Source: Mongoliibacter ruber
GTDB lineage: Bacteria; Bacteroidota; Bacteroidia; Cytophagales; Cyclobacteriaceae
Direction of reading: 5' to 3'
NCBI RefSeq assembly: GCF_003003005.1
Contig: NZ_PVTR01000002.1
Location: 272,831-336,830, forward strand
Length of the DNA stretch: 64,000 nt
Part shown: positions 8,061 through 39,379 of the stretch, piece by piece
Numbering within the stretch: the stretch's first letter is position 1
How the letters are laid out: each line of letters begins with the position of its first letter
Notes under the pieces: model-generated
Told to the model about the DNA's origin: nothing
The model's database searches: none
The model's input: only the letters and a program-made list of their open reading frames with translations
Translations under genes and position numbers: made by a program

Positions 8061-8071
8061 ATTTGATAAAA

Positions 8072-10564
8072 ATGTATCCGAAACTCCTTCTTTCCCTGCT
8101 CCTCTTTTTTTCATTCGGCCTTTTACATGCTCAGGATTATTCTTCAATGCTAAAAGAAAAAGTCATTCAGTACAGCGAAGCAAATCCTTATGAAAAAGTC
8201 CACCTCCATATGGACAAAGCACATTATTTTTTGAATGACACCATTTGGATCAAAGCCTATGGGACAATTGAAAACGGTGAAGAATTACCCGCCGCCACAC
8301 CATCGGTGCCCCTTTATGTCAACCTGTACAACCACATCAAGCGTGAACCTGAGGCACAAATAGTCATCAAATTGGAGAAAGGTTCTGGTCAGGGAGATTT
8401 GGTCTTGCCCAGAGATTTGAACCCCGGAATTTATTCCTTGATCGCTTTTACCAAAAGAAGTGAAGTGTCGGGCGAAAAATACCTCTTCGCCAAAGATCTT
8501 TGGATTGGGGAAATCACGGATGCCTTTATTCCCAGAACCGATTTGGAAGGGACTTTAGAAGTCAGTTTCCTTCCGGAGGGAGGCGACCTTATCGAAGGTT
8601 TGAAAAGTAAAGTTGGTTTCAAGGCTACAGGAGACAAAGGACTTGGAGAGGAGTTTTATGGATATTTGATTCAGAACGAAAAAGACACGCTATTCCAGTT
8701 TGAGTCCAACCATTTGGGAATGGGCTCTTTTGATATTACTCCTGAAAAAAACCAACAATACCATGCACATGTCAAATCCCTAAGCAGCAAGTGGAAAAAG
8801 GTCAACCTGCCTTCGGCAAAACCGAGGGGAACGGTACTGAGGGTGGATGTCCTGAGCGAGGAAGAAACAGGTGTCATTGAGGTTGAAAGTAATGCCCATT
8901 CAGAAAAGGAAATGATGCTACTGGCCATTTCCGCAGGTAAAATCGTCTGGGAGAAAAATGTGGCCTTACAAGAAGGAAAGGCAGAGGTTCAGTTCGTAAA
9001 AGATGATATACCTCCCGGAATTGCGCAAATCACGCTCATGGAAAAAAATGGCCCTCCAGTGGCAGAGCGCTTGGTCTACCTCCACCCATATGCGCAGGCT
9101 CTGGTGGAGTTTGAATCCGACAAAAACACCTATTCTCCAAAGGAATGGGTAGAATTGGATATTGTAGTCAGCGATGAGTTTGGGGCTCCGATAGCTGGTG
9201 ACTTTTCAATTTCTGTGACCGATGCCGGGCAGGTCTTCTCTGAGCCTTATGCGGCAAACATACTTTCACATTTTCGCTTGAGTTCCGAGTTGAAAGGTTT
9301 GGTCGAACAGCCTTCTTACTATTTTGACCTGGAAAATGAAAAAGCCGAAGCACATCTCGATGACTTGCTCTTGACACAGGGATGGAGGAGGTTCCGCTGG
9401 GAAAAACTGGCTGATGAGAACCGCAAAGGCCCTGAATTTGAAAGAGGCTTGGAATTCAGTGGTCAAGCCGTGCAACTGGGCGGAAAGTCCATCACAGAGC
9501 CGCATAAAGTGACAGCCATGGTCAACAGCTTTTATGACCTGCCGCAAATCTTGGAAGGGGAAACCGACGCTCAGGGCAGGTTTACCTTTACGGATTTGGA
9601 TTTCTTTGATTCTGTGTCTGTTTTCACACAGGTGTATCTTGAGAAAGATGGTTCTTCCAAGGTCAGCAAAAAAAATGAATTGCAATTGATTCCCAGGGAT
9701 GTGAAAGCAAGGCCGGATAAATTGATTTCGGGAATTCCTTTAAATCAAAAAGATAATATTGACTTTGAGTATGTGGTCAAAGTAGGAGAAGCAAGAAATA
9801 TGCTGGAACAGTTTGTCTTGGGTCAGGAAGTAATGCTACAGGAAATTACAGTAGAAGCAAAAGACCTGAGTAAGCCAAATGATTTTCGCACACTTTTATA
9901 CGGAGATAGTCCTGACGCTAGCCTCCCAGTCACTCGGGAAGATTTTGTTTATGCCAATGTCATTCAATTCCTTAGGGGAAGGGTTCCCGGAGTACAAGTA
10001 ATTGGAGATGTTTTTGATTTTCAGTATCCACCGAGGGTGATCATAAGGGGAGGGGTGATTACCGGAAATGCCAGCGGAAGGACTCAAAATGATAGCAACC
10101 CAATTTTAATTGATGGTCAACCCACCGATGTATTGATGGCCATGAGTCTAAATATGATAGATGTAGAAAGGGTTGACGTGATCAAATCCCAAGGGAAAGC
10201 TGCGTTGATGAGTGGTGTGCCCTATATCAATATCCTGACCAAAACAGGCAACCCTCCAACTGATTTTGAAGATGATCCGAGATTGGGTCAAGGGAATGAC
10301 TACTTATTTACCAAAGGGTATCAGGCGCCGAGGGAATTTTACCTCCCTCCGGCAGAGGTAGAAGACGATGGTTTTTTCTCGGTGGACTTTAGGTCTACCT
10401 TATTCTGGAACCCACAATTGCGCTCTCTTCAGGATGGGAAAATAAAAGTTTCCTTTCCTTTAAATGAAGGCTATACCCATGTCAATGTAGTTCTTGAAGG
10501 ACTTTCTAAATACAAAGAACCAGTTTATGGGCAGTTTACTTTTGATGCGGGGGGAGGAAATTAG
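8072..10564 (+). CDS. Large secreted MG2-like / TonB-plug protein without a beta-barrel
   Basis: The ATG at 8072 is preferred to the TTG at 8063. A signal peptide ends near LLHAQ. Next comes the segment EKVHLHMDKAHYF, typical of Bacteroidota proteins with alpha-2-macroglobulin-like (MG2) repeats (about 30-330), then beta-rich domains. Residues about 610-740 resemble a TonB-receptor plug (LRGRVPGVQV... PILIDGQPT... IDVERVDVIKS). The protein ends about 90 residues later, so there is no room for a barrel and it is not a transporter by itself. Function unknown; an envelope scaffold or partner of a receptor is possible. The stop TAG overlaps a purine-rich repeat arm. Confidence 0.72.
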   Translation: MYPKLLLSLLLFFSFGLLHAQDYSSMLKEKVIQYSEANPYEKVHLHMDKAHYFLNDTIWIKAYGTIENGEELPAATPSVPLYVNLYNHIKREPEAQIVIKLEKGSGQGDLVLPRDLNPGIYSLIAFTKRSEVSGEKYLFAKDLWIGEITDAFIPRTDLEGTLEVSFLPEGGDLIEGLKSKVGFKATGDKGLGEEFYGYLIQNEKDTLFQFESNHLGMGSFDITPEKNQQYHAHVKSLSSKWKKVNLPSAKPRGTVLRVDVLSEEETGVIEVESNAHSEKEMMLLAISAGKIVWEKNVALQEGKAEVQFVKDDIPPGIAQITLMEKNGPPVAERLVYLHPYAQALVEFESDKNTYSPKEWVELDIVVSDEFGAPIAGDFSISVTDAGQVFSEPYAANILSHFRLSSELKGLVEQPSYYFDLENEKAEAHLDDLLLTQGWRRFRWEKLADENRKGPEFERGLEFSGQAVQLGGKSITEPHKVTAMVNSFYDLPQILEGETDAQGRFTFTDLDFFDSVSVFTQVYLEKDGSSKVSKKNELQLIPRDVKARPDKLISGIPLNQKDNIDFEYVVKVGEARNMLEQFVLGQEVMLQEITVEAKDLSKPNDFRTLLYGDSPDASLPVTREDFVYANVIQFLRGRVPGVQVIGDVFDFQYPPRVIIRGGVITGNASGRTQNDSNPILIDGQPTDVLMAMSLNMIDVERVDVIKSQGKAALMSGVPYINILTKTGNPPTDFEDDPRLGQGNDYLFTKGYQAPREFYLPPAEVEDDGFFSVDFRSTLFWNPQLRSLQDGKIKVSFPLNEGYTHVNVVLEGLSKYKEPVYGQFTFDAGGGN

Positions 10565-10625
10565 AAACAAGATGCAAGACAAAGACGAGATGCGGGAAAC
10601 GAGAGATTAGAGGCGAAAAGCAAGA
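10562..10625 (+). repeat. Purine-rich repeat arm at a stop codon
   Basis: A purine-rich stretch of GAAACAAGA / GACGAGATG / GAGATTAGAGG / GCAAGACAGG modules begins at the TAG stop of the MG2-plug gene. The same modules follow the stops of the HAAO, thiolase and HAD genes (on their coding strands). The rest of the gap to 10752 holds no ORF. Confidence 0.6.
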
Positions 10626-16490: not shown

Positions 16491-16587
16491 TTGATTCTTA
16501 TTTCTTGACTCTTTTATCTCATATCTACCCCTATCGGGGCTTGTTTCTCGCCCTTGGCATCTCGTATCTAATCTCTCGCTTCTCCGT
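16491..16587 (-). repeat. Purine-rich repeat arm (minus strand) after the HAAO stop
   Basis: On the minus strand, directly after the dioxygenase stop, come modules GGAGAAGCGAGAGATTAGA, GAGATGCC, GAGAAACAAG and, further on, AGTCAAGAAATAAGAATC. These are the same modules as at 10562, 37537-37570 and 39310-39379. A CCCCTATCGGGG palindrome interrupts it. Confidence 0.6.
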
Positions 16588-17103
16588 TCAACCTTTCTCC
16601 ATCACCGTCCCGCACTGATCACATTTGGTGTTCGACGGATTGCTCCAAAATCGCTCCATAATAGGTGGCAGCTGATTGACGATATCTGTCACTTCATGGA
16701 ATTCTTCGTAAAGCTTATTCCCACAATTTTCGCAATGCCAAATAAACCCGTCTTTCTCGCCTTCTTTACGGTATCTTTCCATCACCAACCCGATGGTATT
16801 TGCCGGCCTCCTTGGTGAATGTGGAACTCCCGCTGGCAACAAGAACATTTCACCGGGTCCTATTTTGATATCCTTTACTTCACCTTCCTCCACGATTTTT
16901 AGGGTGATTTCGCCTTCCACTTGATAAAAAAACTCTTCCCCCTCATTGTAGTGAAAATCTTTACGGGAATTGGGTCCACCGACTACCATCACAATAAAGT
17001 CATCATTTCCCTTATACATCACCTGATTGCCGATTGGCGGCTTGAGAAGGTGTCTGTTATCTTCAATCCATTTCTGAAAATTGATCGGTTTTGCCACTGG
17101 CAT
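16588..17103 (-). CDS. nbaC: 3-hydroxyanthranilate 3,4-dioxygenase
   Basis: Cupin dioxygenase of the kynurenine route, opening 3-hydroxyanthranilate to the precursor of quinolinate. The start is set at the ATG at 17103 (MPVAKPINF), the family's normal N-terminus; upstream residues are a hydrophobic read-through. The Fe ligands are in FHYNEGEEFFYQ (His and Glu) and GVPHSPRRP (His). The C-terminus has two CxxC pairs (CENC and CDQC), the rubredoxin-like site of bacterial and fungal forms. No other kynurenine-pathway gene is in the window. It is divergent from the M19 dipeptidase. Confidence 0.88.
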   Translation of the reverse strand: MPVAKPINFQKWIEDNRHLLKPPIGNQVMYKGNDDFIVMVVGGPNSRKDFHYNEGEEFFYQVEGEITLKIVEEGEVKDIKIGPGEMFLLPAGVPHSPRRPANTIGLVMERYRKEGEKDGFIWHCENCGNKLYEEFHEVTDIVNQLPPIMERFWSNPSNTKCDQCGTVMEKG

Positions 17104-17198
17104 AGCTAATGAGGTTTGGTTTATTAAAAGGTAAACACCAATAAGCTTTAAAAGTATTAAAAAAACTGTCAAATTTGAGTTCAAAATTCCCATTTTCC

Positions 17199-23160: not shown

Positions 23161-23720
23161 AAAAAAATGGTTTAATAGTCTTATAGAAATTTAGCCATTT
23201 ACAATGAAAAATGCACTATTCTTAAAATTTAGATCTATGAACAGATCTCTCCTGCGTCGAGATGACAAGGTGAGGTCATTTTAAGTTTTCATTCTGCAAA
23301 ATTAACAAGGGTTTCATTCGCTAAGTCAGTTCAAGACTAATAAAAACTTTGCCTGTCATCTCGCCTGCCTGCCTTTGGTAGGAGTGAAACGAGAGATCTG
23401 TTCATTGCTTACATAACTCACCAAGGTCAAGGGTAGTTGTCTGTAGAGAGTCCGTAAATAGATCTCTCCTGCGTCGAGATGACAAGGTGAGGTCATTTTA
23501 AGTTTTCATTCTGCAAAATTAGCAAGGGTGTCATTCACTAAGTCAGTTCAAGAGTAATAAAAACTTTGCCTTGTCATCTCGCCTGCCTGCCTTTGGTAGG
23601 AGTGAAACGAGAGATCTGATCATTGCTTACATAACTCACCAAGGTCAAGGGTAGTTGTCTGTAGAGAGTCCGTAAATAGATCTCTCCTGCCTGCCTTTGG
23701 TAGGAGTGAAGAGAGAGATC
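23161..23720. repeat. Inverted-repeat array, right half (two tandem 217-bp units)
   Basis: Two almost identical units start at 23243 and 23460 (217-bp period), and a third start at 23678 gives a partial unit. Each holds AGATCTCTCCTGCGTCGAGA at the left and the inverted CGAGATGAC/GAGAGATCT complement at the right, with about 70 bp of conserved spacer (AAAATTA(A/G)CAAGGGT). The high identity of these two units, against the diverged left half, points to recent duplication. Confidence 0.85.
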
Positions 23721-34214: not shown

Positions 34215-35383
34215 TTAATAATTTAGACCGAAAGCCCAAAGAGGAATAATATTGAGGTAACCAAATTCTATATCGTCTTTTACCACAAATGACTTACCCT
34301 CTTTCTCTATTTGTTTTTGTTGTTTATTACTTCCACCAATTTCAAACGTATAGTTATCTATCACAAAATCGGCTGTTTTTGAAGATATTACTTCATTATT
34401 TACCCGCATTTGATTAAAAAAGAAAGTTTCTCGTATATTTCCTATGTTTGATCTATTACCGACCAAATTATATATGATATTCGTATTATCCAAATATACT
34501 TTTTCTATCTTTCCAAGTCCCCTAATTCCATTTGTTTCATTTCGCAACTGTCCGATAAGTCCTGCATGCTCCATATATAGAAAATAATCGTCTAATGAAT
34601 TACGGCTTACATTGATAATTTCAGCTATCTTGGTGAAATTGGGTTTAAATGGTACGCTTTCAGCAATAATTTTTAGTAATCGTTTTATTTTTCTGCTGGT
34701 TCCCACGTTTAAGTTGGCATATTGTGGTATGTCAGTTTCCAGTGTTTGCACAATTATTTGTCCTAAACGTAAATCAATTTCATTTTCAACACCGAAAGGA
34801 TAATATCCACGTTTCAAGTAATCTTTGAACAGGGGTAAAGGGTGTTTTATTTGATCAAGTTTAAACTCATTATTTATAATCTGTTGCAAGGAATATACTT
34901 CAATGTCATAACCATGAAAAAAATTCAAGTATTCCCGAAATGAAAGTCCATGTAATTTATAGATTATCGCCGACGACTTAAATCAGAAGAACCTTTAAGA
35001 ATATCTAACACAGAAGACCCTGTGAATACAACTTTTAATTCAGGAAATGAATCATAAATGTCTTTTAATTCTCGTGACCAGTTTGCGTATTTATGGATCT
35101 CGTCAATAAATAAATACTCTCCTGCATTTTTATAGAACTCATCTACTAAATCAATAAGTTTATTATCACTAAAATAAAGATCATCTGCTGATACATACAA
35201 AGCTTTCTTACTGTTTAGATTTTGCTTTATATATTGCAAAATCATGGTTGTTTTTCCTACACCACGAGGACCAATGATACCAATCATTCGACTTTCCCAT
35301 GATACTCTATCATATAAATAACGTTTGAAATCCGTTGTCGTATTTTGCAAAAGAGTCTCAAATTTCTGGTATAATTTTTCCAT
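34215..35383 (-). pseudogene. AAA+ ATPase (AAA_14 plus DUF4143), split by a frameshift
   Basis: The 5' part (35383-34964) has Walker A GPRGVGKTTM, Walker B YLFIDEIHKY and the VFTGSSVLDI sensor segment, then stops after DLSRRR. The family normally continues directly into a HGLSFREYLNFF segment. That segment is present in another frame from about 34971 and leads into the 3' part (to 34215), which carries the DUF4143-like end KTADFVIDNYTFEIGG. One base appears to be missing in the CGTCGGCG run near 34971-34974. It is either a broken gene or a sequencing error. Confidence 0.82.
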
Positions 35384-37416: not shown

Positions 37417-37430
37417 GATGATAAGATTAA

Positions 37431-37458
37431 AGATGCAAGAGACAAGAGACAAGACTTG
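37431..37458 (+). repeat. Repeat arm, pyrimidine-rich on the coding strand, ahead of acyl-CoA dehydrogenase
   Basis: GATGCAAGAGACAAGAGACAAG on the plus strand. It is an imperfect inverted match to the purine arm at 37537-37570, with about 80 nt of A/T-rich DNA between. The pair forms a short element between thiolase and acyl-CoA dehydrogenase. Confidence 0.55.
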
Positions 37459-37536: not shown

Positions 37537-37570
37537 CCTGTCTTGTTTCTTGATTCTATTTTCTTGATTC
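37537..37570 (-). repeat. Purine-rich repeat arm after the thiolase stop
   Basis: On the minus strand the thiolase stop TAA runs straight into GAATCAAGAAAATAGAATC AAGAAACAAGACAGG modules. It has the same modules and end (CAAGACAGG) as the arm at 10562. Confidence 0.6.
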
Positions 37571-38746
37571 TTATTTCAGTAATTCAAAGACCCCAGCTAC
37601 TCCCTGTCCACCACCAACACAGGCTGTGACCATTCCGTATTTTTTATTCTGTTTGCGGAGTTCATTGAAGAGCTGCACTGAAAGCTTTGCTCCAGTACAT
37701 CCAAGTGGATGGCCAAGAGCCACTGCACCACCATTGACATTTACTTTATCAATATCCATGTCCAAGGACTTGATCACTGCCAAGGCCTGAGCTGCGAATG
37801 CTTCGTTCAATTCGATAAGGTCTATCTTGTCGAGGCTTAGGCCAGCTTGTTTAAGGGCCTTGGGCACCGCCTCCTTAGGTCCAATACCCATTATCCTTGG
37901 TTCTACACCAGCCACAGAATAAGACATCATCCTAGCCACCGGTTCAAGGTTGAGCTCTTTTACCATTCTTTCAGACATGACCACCACAAAAGCAGCTCCA
38001 TCTGATGTCTGGGATGAGTTTCCTGCGGTTACCATACCACCTTGTTTGAAAGCTGGTCTGAGGTTGGATAAAGCTTCCATGGAAGTACCTTTTCTTGGTC
38101 CTTCGTCGGTATCTACTGTGTACTTTCGCGTCTTTCTTTTTCCTTTTTCGTCCAAGTATGTTTCTTCTACTTCAACAGGTACGATTTCGTCTTTGAATCT
38201 GCCTTCTGCAATGGCAGCTAAAGCCCTGTCGTGAGACCTTACTGAAAAAGCATCAGCATCTTCTCTGCTGATGTCGTATTCTTTCGACAATTCTTCTGCG
38301 GTGAGCCCCATGCTCAGGTAATAATCCGGCGTTTCGGAAGCAATCTTCCAGTTGAGCGCTGTTTTATATCCCATCATAGGCAGTAGCGACATGGATTCGG
38401 TACCACCAGCAATGATACAATCGGCCATACCAGCCTTGATTTTACCTACTGCCAAAGCGATGGCTTCCAAACCGGAACCACAGTACCTATTGATGATAAA
38501 TCCAGGATTGTCCACCCCCAAGGCTAGCAGAGAAATCATTCTTCCCATCTGCATACCCTGCTCGGCTTCTGGTATGGCATTTCCCACGATAAGGTCATCC
38601 ACCATTTTATTTTCCAATCCAGGCGTATTGGCCACCAAGTGCTTGATGACATCTGATGCCAGATCATCTGGGCGGTAAAACCTGAAGCCACCTTTTTTGG
38701 CCTTTCCCACCGCTGATCTATATCCATTTACTATATAAGCTTCCAT
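37571..38746 (-). CDS. fadA: Acetyl-CoA acyltransferase (thiolase)
   Basis: Final beta-oxidation step, cleaving 3-ketoacyl-CoA. The nucleophile Cys89 is in [10 protein letters not shown], the His motif [14 protein letters not shown] is present, and the second Cys is in CVGGGQG. 391 residues is a standard length. It lies between the acyl-CoA dehydrogenase and the HAD/hydratase genes of the same strand. Confidence 0.94.
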
Positions 38747-38808
38747 AAGTGTATGTTTCTAAATTGAGGTTTATTGTTGATGTAATGTTTGTTGAAATAT
38801 TAGAGTAA

Positions 38809-38840
38809 GATTGAAGAGACAAGAATCAAGAGACAAGATT
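38809..38840 (+). repeat. Repeat arm between the four-helix-bundle gene and thiolase
   Basis: GAAGAGACAAGAATCAAGAG ACAAG on the plus strand, the same module as at 37431-37458. It lies 12 nt beyond the stop of the four-helix-bundle gene and forms, with 39310-39379, the flanks of that gene. Confidence 0.6.
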
Positions 38841-38851
38841 TAGGGAATTCC

Positions 38852-39229
38852 CTAATAGGGGTTGGATTCTACCGTTGAAATTAATCCATTGATCATTCTT
38901 TGGACTTCACTGATCTCGGTATCAAGAGCTATAAACTCATCCTTATCTAATAAACCTACTAGATTGGCAATGATGGCTTGAGTTTCCAATTCGTAACTTT
39001 CACCAAGGCTAATGTCAAGAGAGTTTACAAAAGATTTAGAAGTGCTTTTGGCAGTTCCTTCGGCAATATTTGATGGAATAGAAACGCTTGCCCTTCGCAT
39101 TTGGGAGGTTATTCCAAATTTCTCCTCACTGGGAAATCCCTTTGTGATTTTATAAACCTTCACAGCCAAATCAACTGATTTTTGCCATACTTTAAGGTTC
39201 TTGAAATTATGCCTGATCTTCATATCCAA
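38852..39229 (-). CDS. Four-helix-bundle protein (23S rRNA IVS-type / S23 family)
   Basis: About 125 residues, all-alpha. The signature NLKVWQKSVDLAVKVYKITKGFP and the later QMRRASVSIPSNIAEG are those of the S23/IVS four-helix-bundle family (TIGR02436), related in fold to the Avd protein of diversity-generating retroelements. These are found inside 23S rRNA intervening sequences or free in the genome. It interrupts the fad gene order and is flanked by matching repeat arms, so it looks inserted. No reverse transcriptase is present. Confidence 0.87.
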   Translation of the reverse strand: MDMKIRHNFKNLKVWQKSVDLAVKVYKITKGFPSEEKFGITSQMRRASVSIPSNIAEGTAKSTSKSFVNSLDISLGESYELETQAIIANLVGLLDKDEFIALDTEISEVQRMINGLISTVESNPY

Positions 39230-39309
39230 TTAAATTTGAGTTAATAATCATTTTTCTATTTCAACTCTTTAATCTTCTGAACTACTCTACTCCCTTCCAC
39301 CTACTGCAA

Positions 39310-39379
39310 CCTATCTTGCTTCTTTATTCTTGTTTCTAAAATTCGTCTCTCGCTTCTCGCTTCTAATCTATCGCTTCTA
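39310..39379 (-). repeat. Purine-rich repeat arm at the HAD/hydratase stop
   Basis: On the minus strand, from the stop TAG of the HAD gene: AAGCGATAGATTAGAAGCGAG AAGCGAGAGACGAA, then AGAAACAAG and GAAGCAAGATAGG. The stop codon falls in the arm's ATTAGAA-type module, as at 10562. Confidence 0.6.

Follow-up and report, generated by a model that had tools for sequence, protein, structure and literature searches.

The window analysed here, a stretch of 64,000 nucleotides of the Mongoliibacter ruber genome, carries on its reverse strand a small open reading frame (38852-39229; 125 amino acids from a TTG start, with an ATG at 39223) for a four-helix-bundle protein of the S23 (23S rRNA-IVP) type. 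The protein matches PF05635 at 131.2 bits (cut-off 33.8), over residues 10-115 of 125, and TIGR02436 at 125.4 bits (cut-off 24), and by both curated cut-offs it belongs to the S23 (IVP) family. On the basis of Pfam matches the gene is bounded by genes for a 3-hydroxyacyl-CoA dehydrogenase (HAD) and a thiolase. The only other Pfam match of the protein up to E=1 is a weak one to bAvd. An earlier note on this DNA had connected the family with DGR systems; the resemblance at superfamily level stands, but it is resemblance only, since bAvd (26.5 bits, cut-off 40) and DivGenRetAVD (30.7 bits, cut-off 80) both fall below threshold. The Pfam profile search gave the protein no match to the Y1 (HUH) transposase that marks REPIN/RAYT systems, and a unit of the window type encodes no recombinase. 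Two relatives with solved structures, 2GSC and 2RLD, have five chains each. Elsewhere in the window, two separate reading frames (34215-35383, reverse strand) encode an AAA_14 ATPase portion and a DUF4143 portion, as if a single AAA_14-DUF4143 gene had been broken, and a tandem repeat of period 218 (2.1 copies, 97% matches) occupies positions 23243-23690.

The S23 gene is enclosed by two repeat arms on its own strand. The 5' arm (39310-39379) runs from the TAG stop codon of the HAD gene (39379-39377) and consists of AG-rich degenerate heptads (AGAAGCG, AGANNCA), and the 3' arm (38806-38841) is a shorter run of complementary heptads that reads TCTTGTCTCTTGATTCTTGTCTCTTC in the sense direction. 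This bears out the enclosure that the earlier note had described, with a purine arm starting at the HAD stop codon, but not its view of the arms as two different repeats: they are inverted, complementary arrays of degenerate heptads. Because the arms are mutual reverse complements, they make up the stem of a hairpin whose loop contains the S23 gene and which begins at the stop codon of the preceding gene. When the unit is folded as RNA, within 591 nt, the arms pair in both the minimum-energy and the centroid structure, with 7 of 100 shuffled sequences folding equally well. A second hairpin of this kind, also seen earlier, lies in the next spacer with no gene between its arms; its 5' arm (37541-37577, reverse strand) follows the thiolase stop codon and its 3' arm (37422-37457, reverse strand) precedes the start of the acyl-CoA dehydrogenase (ACAD) gene. 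We refer to the HAD-thiolase spacer as site A and to the thiolase-ACAD spacer as site B. Two solitary purine arrays follow other genes, again as the note had it: one (10556-10622, forward strand) begins at the stop codon of the reading frame 8063-10564, and the other (16563-16583, reverse strand) lies 4 nt past the stop codon of the reading frame 16588-17193, a 3-hydroxyanthranilate dioxygenase by Pfam. In the window the arm units are degenerate tandem heptads of the form AGANNCA/AGANNCG, and a looser heptad expression matches 15 places in the window compared with 5 in the reversed window.

The earlier note had proposed that the arms be counted genome-wide. In the 5.0-Mb M. ruber genome, a 24-base arm pattern with up to 3 mismatches has 38+46 matches, 84 in all, as opposed to 0+0 for the reversed pattern. 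We read 29 intergenic arrays of the window type around such matches in this genome: a same-strand gene precedes 18 of them, and in 8 of the 18 the array begins no further than 30 nt from that gene's stop codon. Most window-type arrays lie far from the six S23 genes of the genome. A heptad array is nevertheless found within 1.5 kb of the S23 gene at five of the six loci in M. ruber (the window's own gene being counted through the site B array, the one that passes the threshold) and at four of five loci in a genus mate; a lack of arms at S23 genes elsewhere in the genus was part of what the note had named as telling against its proposal. Another M. ruber S23 gene (L010, G000:C3:5395-5712) has an internal TGA, making it a decayed copy within this same genome, and further S23 matches with one stop exist among the matches listed. 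Inside 550 nt of one M. ruber spacer (L367, 14930-15481), several octad arrays (TCAATTCA/TCAGTTCG) stand alongside a single heptad array.

Across S23 loci there is no single conserved arm profile of the kind the earlier note had envisaged; the heptad type changes and the layout alone is conserved. Since the arms vary in this way, a motif-free lag score was used in place of a fixed profile. Its sample began as 69 S23 loci, 7 of them without a tblastn match; 6 were later added, giving 68, and L049 was left out. The S23 loci sampled were the best-scoring among the matches listed rather than a random draw. Seven lags were tested around 62 S23 genes, and arrays appeared at lag 7 and weakly at lag 8, with a peak within 100 nt of the S23 gene. 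At that distance, lag 7 arrays precede 13 and follow 17 of the 62 genes, becoming fewer further away; the corresponding figures at lag 8 are 4 and 5, and lags 4, 5, 10, 11 and 13 gave no array in any bin around these genes. Once duplicates, frames of odd length and those without a start or an end had been dropped, 169 profile hits yielded 138 distinct S23 reading frames, and period-7 arrays are present in 66 of the 212 spacers adjacent to them. Only 4 of 364 control spacers have such arrays (800 kb from M. ruber and 16 other genomes of its family; p=3e-27 with loci treated as independent, the 40 control stretches having been chosen unseen by hand and not cleared of unlisted S23 genes). Counting against a tight tie to S23, heptads also occur in 21 of 115 other spacers inside the same S23 loci, a figure to which the paired sites of the fad operon probably contribute.

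The arms commonly run to 3-5 units, most often four, and they are polar: AG recurs in 27 of 45 5' arms (CT in 4), and CT in 25 of 39 3' arms (AG in 3). A pentamer engaging five heptads was set aside as the main model because the commonest run is four units. The idea that the heptads act as a stop-codon device in all frames was dropped, as AGANNCA/AGANNCG contain no stop and TAG recurs in 5 of the 45 5' arms. The S23 gene is co-directional with both neighbours in 118 of 136 cases, a proportion that is not far lower among other gene triples (46 of 58). Over 148 genomes, S23 counts and heptad counts correlate with a Spearman coefficient of 0.67 (within families, p=0.09). This last comparison used a single heptad type, KAGANNN x4, with forward, reverse and control counts summed, and the control is a poor one because the reversed pattern also matches heptads.

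The two arms of an S23 gene match one another even though the heptad sequence changes from locus to locus. With 27 of the 138 reading frames set apart for having a flank shorter than 25 nt, 111 could be scored, and 60 of these have complementary arms of their own (alignment score of at least 26) as against 1.9% of swapped pairs. The same score is reached by 4 of 281 other genes and by 3 of 74 small ones (S23 versus other genes, p=1e-34 with loci treated as independent). The gene's own partner arm is the best of all for 40 of the 111 and within the top 5% for 86. Counting against this, direct-repeat arms attain the same score in 11 of 111 S23 genes. At the fad sites, compared across species, matched arms have a median score of 27 versus 17 when swapped, and 31 versus 16, but the own partner arm is top-ranked in just 5 of 22 and 7 of 15 cases. 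The pattern extends beyond the phylum of the host. One scan supplied 80 named loci, 79 of them usable (one flank was too short); arms are complementary at 38 of the 60 loci from Bacteroidota (against 6.2% when sampled pairs are swapped) and at 15 of the 19 that do not carry this label (against 2.8%). Geobacter, Clostridia, Gemmatimonadota, Atribacterota, Chloroflexota and Patescibacteria are represented among the 15; many of these loci come from metagenome bins and two have no phylum label. The locus titled Limnohabitans (L276) is probably mis-binned, because the start of its downstream thiolase resembles that of Bacteroidota, and without it the count is 14 of 18. Rfam gave 0 hits at gathering scores in the 19 loci. 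A genome may hold up to 16 S23 genes. There was no S23 match in phage records; 25 plasmid records have one, 23 of them cyanobacterial, and arms are complementary in 10 of the 12 plasmid cases examined (14 of 132 swapped plasmid pairs reach the threshold).

Across the host's family the gene comes and goes at both fad sites. We measured 57 thiolase loci, 53 of them at site A and 44 at site B, leaving aside the second thiolase of genome G002 and the partial thiolase of G038. At site A, 22 of 53 cases have an S23 gene, 20 have a short spacer (2-60 nt) and 11 a longer one lacking S23; for site B the figures, in the same order, are 15 of 44, 12 and 17. The gene is thus not fixed in fad synteny; its fixation there in all relatives was the other part of what the earlier note had named as telling against its proposal. 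Among the longer S23-less spacers read by eye, some are heptad-armed hairpins (e.g. L108, L146, L168, L171 and L172) and others have no clear heptads (e.g. L154, L158, L162 and L176). In one of the latter, the 158-nt site A spacer L154 of genome G044, there is a long hairpin without evident heptads (-49 kcal/mol), another kind of insert at the same place. The upstream stop codon is TAG at 29 of 37 S23-bearing sites versus 8 of 32 short spacers (p=1e-5), an excess that is clear at site A (18 of 22 versus 2 of 20) and weak at site B (11 of 15 versus 6 of 12). Before all sampled S23 genes TAG is found in 48 of 103 cases, and before other reading frames in 80 of 238.

One genome, G021, links a gene-less hairpin directly to a full unit. 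Its site B hairpin agrees with its own site A S23 unit at 34 of 35 nt at the 5' end and 40 of 45 nt at the 3' end, with a score of 65; site B spacers from other genomes score 29 at best. The hairpin also retains the S23 stop codon (TACTAG), which shows that it derives from a full unit, and it is a deletion derivative of such an S23 unit. Gene conversion between the two adjacent spacers may have been the route of transfer. Used as a query, the site B stretch finds itself, both site A arms and 16 short matches elsewhere in G021 (28-50 nt, 82-95%). Counting against the mobile reading, a genome's own A-B pair surpasses every pairing with another genome in just 2 of 24 cases.

In 11 pairs sharing the same context, dN/dS is 0.04-0.25 (with dS >1 in 6 of the 11), and the protein thus looks to be conserved under purifying selection. 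The 138 genes occupy 72 gene contexts, and these are clustered on the S23 tree (86 changes against a shuffled mean of 111; FastTree, 123 columns, many open forks), which indicates that inheritance is mostly vertical. Well-supported branches of that tree nonetheless require a minimum of 3 label changes for site A and of 2 for site B. Near-identical S23 genes at different sites were not found among the 138 reading frames, which represent part of each genome's S23 genes, the best pair being 76% identical in nucleotides; nor is there a sign of recent movement of the window's own copy. Identical S23 copies in Calothrix (L388/L389) were rejected as a hop, since they lie inside a duplicated segment of ~3.5 kb.

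The strongest evidence comes from plasmids. Eight cyanobacterial plasmid sites are known both with and without the unit, and they supply the filled and empty sites in relatives that the earlier note had suggested looking for: near-identical plasmids differ by a whole unit at a stop codon. At site 1, in a conjugation operon, the unit is present in Trichormus variabilis and Scytonema and absent from Nostoc linckia and N. carneum. (T. variabilis is represented at this site by two records, one known from its listing, and four more records with the same shorter span as the two Nostoc plasmids are among those listed.) Identity of the flanks across the four plasmids compared is 97.4-98.1%, with no separate grouping of the unit bearers. 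The empty form reads AAAAAGTAATTAAC and the filled form AAAAAGTAA + 424 nt + GTAATTAAC, with 410 nt and two heptads fewer in Scytonema. The difference amounts to 428 nt; four nucleotides, GTAA, which contain the stop codon, are repeated, and the empty form has the exact flanks with no trace of the unit. The same place is taken by a decayed copy in Nostoc sp. C052 and by a gene-less hairpin in Brasilonema. At site 7, where the flanks are 93-96% identical, a 506-nt unit splits the overlapping stop/start TAATG, and ATG (3 nt) stands on both sides. At sites 1 and 7 alike, arms and gene are present or absent as one, and the form that lacks them has no heptads. The other six sites have flanks 85-95% identical, with small target losses and no clean repeat by eye, so that clean flanking repeats, of 4 nt and 3 nt, occur at two of the eight sites. 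Such a repeat could be the microhomology of a deletion, and going by sequence a filled and an empty site may equally reflect gain or precise loss. Sites 1 and 7 present what is expected of an insertion-type element, the same site with and without the unit between exact flanks. At one of the other six the unit sits within the upstream gene, ~10 codons from its end, and at two plasmid sites the S23 gene is antisense to the operon with the unit still abutting the stop codon of the preceding gene. Some cyanobacterial plasmid units are placed in CRISPR operons (L393, L394 and L407): two genera have one between cas6 and cas4, and another separates cas10 from a cmr3-type gene, a position at which plasmid pAQ6 of PCC 7002 has none.

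The layout, the complementary arms that vary by locus, the tie to S23, the purine polarity of the 5' arm, one gene-less deletion derivative and the presence or absence of the unit at orthologous and near-identical sites are direct observations. They make a small intercistronic mobile unit a well-supported description, and the earlier suggestion of an element that lands at gene ends, sometimes carrying the small protein, gains from fad sites A and B, from the 72 contexts and from the plasmids that differ at a stop codon. We consider it probable that the feature in the window is one copy of a small mobile intercistronic hairpin, composed of a 5' arm of AG-containing heptads or octads, the S23 gene and a complementary 3' arm, and placed so that its 5' end meets the stop codon of the preceding gene. 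A plausible mechanism can be sketched. The host operon would transcribe the unit, and the resulting RNA hairpin, probably cut by RNase III by analogy with 23S rRNA IVSs, would make the insert tolerable. An S23 pentamer may bind the heptad hairpin and help a replication, repair or reverse-transcription pathway of the host to copy it into gene ends, while slippage and hairpin template switching would keep the arms complementary. Gene-less hairpins would then be non-autonomous or decayed forms of the unit.

The strong clustering of contexts on the S23 tree, the apparent purifying selection and the lack of recent copies at other sites would also suit an old, vertically inherited intercistronic gene that is not actively mobile, whose hairpins serve the operon in mRNA processing, stability or translational insulation, whose heptads arise by slippage or template switching and whose absences are losses. 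A role of this sort has been proposed for the STRR hairpins between hupS and hupL, which in the available part of the source are suggested to stabilise transcripts or couple translation (PMC2670836). We nevertheless regard such a history as unlikely. It has to accommodate 72 contexts for 138 genes, the label changes forced at the fad sites (at least 3 and at least 2, on a poorly resolved FastTree of 123 columns), S23 genes that are antisense within operons, plasmid flanks that fail to separate bearers from non-bearers and, at plasmid site 1, an empty form with exact flanks and no trace of a loss.

A different possibility is that the hairpins are independent STRR-like repeats that spread by themselves, with S23 cassettes entering and leaving by recombination through the arms. 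Many heptad arrays do stand without an S23 gene, gene-less hairpins occupy spacers that hold S23 in relatives, and the heptads of Geobacter, Beggiatoaceae and cyanobacteria are described, in the available parts of the sources, without S23 (PMC2700814, PMC4679880, PMC2670836). Against this, arms and gene are gained or lost together at plasmid sites 1 and 7, where the other form is free of heptads; the gene-less hairpin of G021 keeps an S23 stop codon and so comes from a full unit; and matching arms are far commoner inside a unit than across units. We hold independent repeats to be distinctly improbable. Chance simple repeats beside an unrelated gene might be entertained for single arms, which are short (commonly 3-5 units) and degenerate, but arrays at lag 7 accompany up to 17 of 62 genes with none at lags 4, 5, 10, 11 and 13, and the comparisons with control spacers (p=3e-27) and, for complementarity, with other genes (p=1e-34), loci being treated as independent in both, rule chance out for practical purposes.

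Beyond the single mobile hairpin, S23 genes and heptad hairpins might together form one widespread class of mobile elements without a transposase. The pentamer would recognise the array, perhaps with one repeat per subunit, and move or copy the hairpin into gene ends, leaving orphan heptads such as the STRRs and, in rRNA, the 23S rRNA IVSs. We put this forward tentatively, as a possibility that we would not yet favour; in a narrower form, the unit may be the source of at least some of the heptanucleotide repeats described without S23 (STRR, Geobacter metallireducens, Bacteroidetes). Three old puzzles, the role of the widespread S23 proteins, the origin of the 23S rRNA IVS and the heptads in spacers of cyanobacteria, Bacteroidota and others, may then be one. 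If so, this would be a mobile element with no recognisable recombinase, one that does its host little harm because it inserts at stop codons between genes transcribed together. The question is directly testable, because plasmids carry the same sites with and without the unit. IVSs and heptad repeats were already known separately; in the titles and abstract beginnings listed from open-access PMC we recognised no paper that joins heptad hairpins to intercistronic S23 genes.

Several known systems share part of this design. REPIN/RAYT systems comprise a gene flanked by inverted repeats together with many gene-less inverted pairs in spacers, the RAYT being a catalytic tyrosine transposase with cognate palindromes. 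The likeness lies in the gene between inverted repeats and in the gene-less pairs; the difference is that S23 matches no such transposase family and that its repeats are tandem heptads. The Avd/bAvd proteins of DGRs belong to the same superfamily as S23, yet the window protein scores below both of their cut-offs and its neighbours are fad genes. Closer in their repeats are the STRRs of filamentous cyanobacteria, the TAACTGA repeats of Beggiatoaceae and the paired sites of Geobacter metallireducens, all of them intergenic heptads that often form hairpins or pairs, and the window unit likewise consists of degenerate tandem spacer heptads capable of forming a hairpin. The available portions of the sources describe paired heptanucleotide sites in G. 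metallireducens (PMC2700814) and TAACTGA repeats in Beggiatoaceae, with heptamer assemblages in Bacteroidetes (PMC4679880). They differ from the present case in making no tie to an S23 gene (likewise PMC2670836 for STRRs): 'four helix' and 'S23' are nowhere in PMC4679880 and 'ribosomal protein S23' is nowhere in PMC2700814.

The nearest counterpart is the 23S rRNA IVS of Coxiella and Leptospira, where, as in the window unit, an S23 reading frame lies in the loop of an inverted-repeat stem (the Coxiella IVS is 428 nt long). Short IVS forms without the gene are known. As far as the available part of the source goes, two or three tandem heptads precede the S23p start codon of the Coxiella IVS, depending on strain, and mobility of such inserts is cited as one theory (PMC4990558). 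The Coxiella reading frame is said to be decaying, whereas S23 here looks to be under purifying selection. IVSs lie within rRNA, while units of the window type occupy spacers between protein genes, in this instance fad genes, and lying outside rRNA the unit is by definition not an IVS. By analogy, however, we suggest that it would work in the same way as an S23-bearing 23S rRNA IVS.
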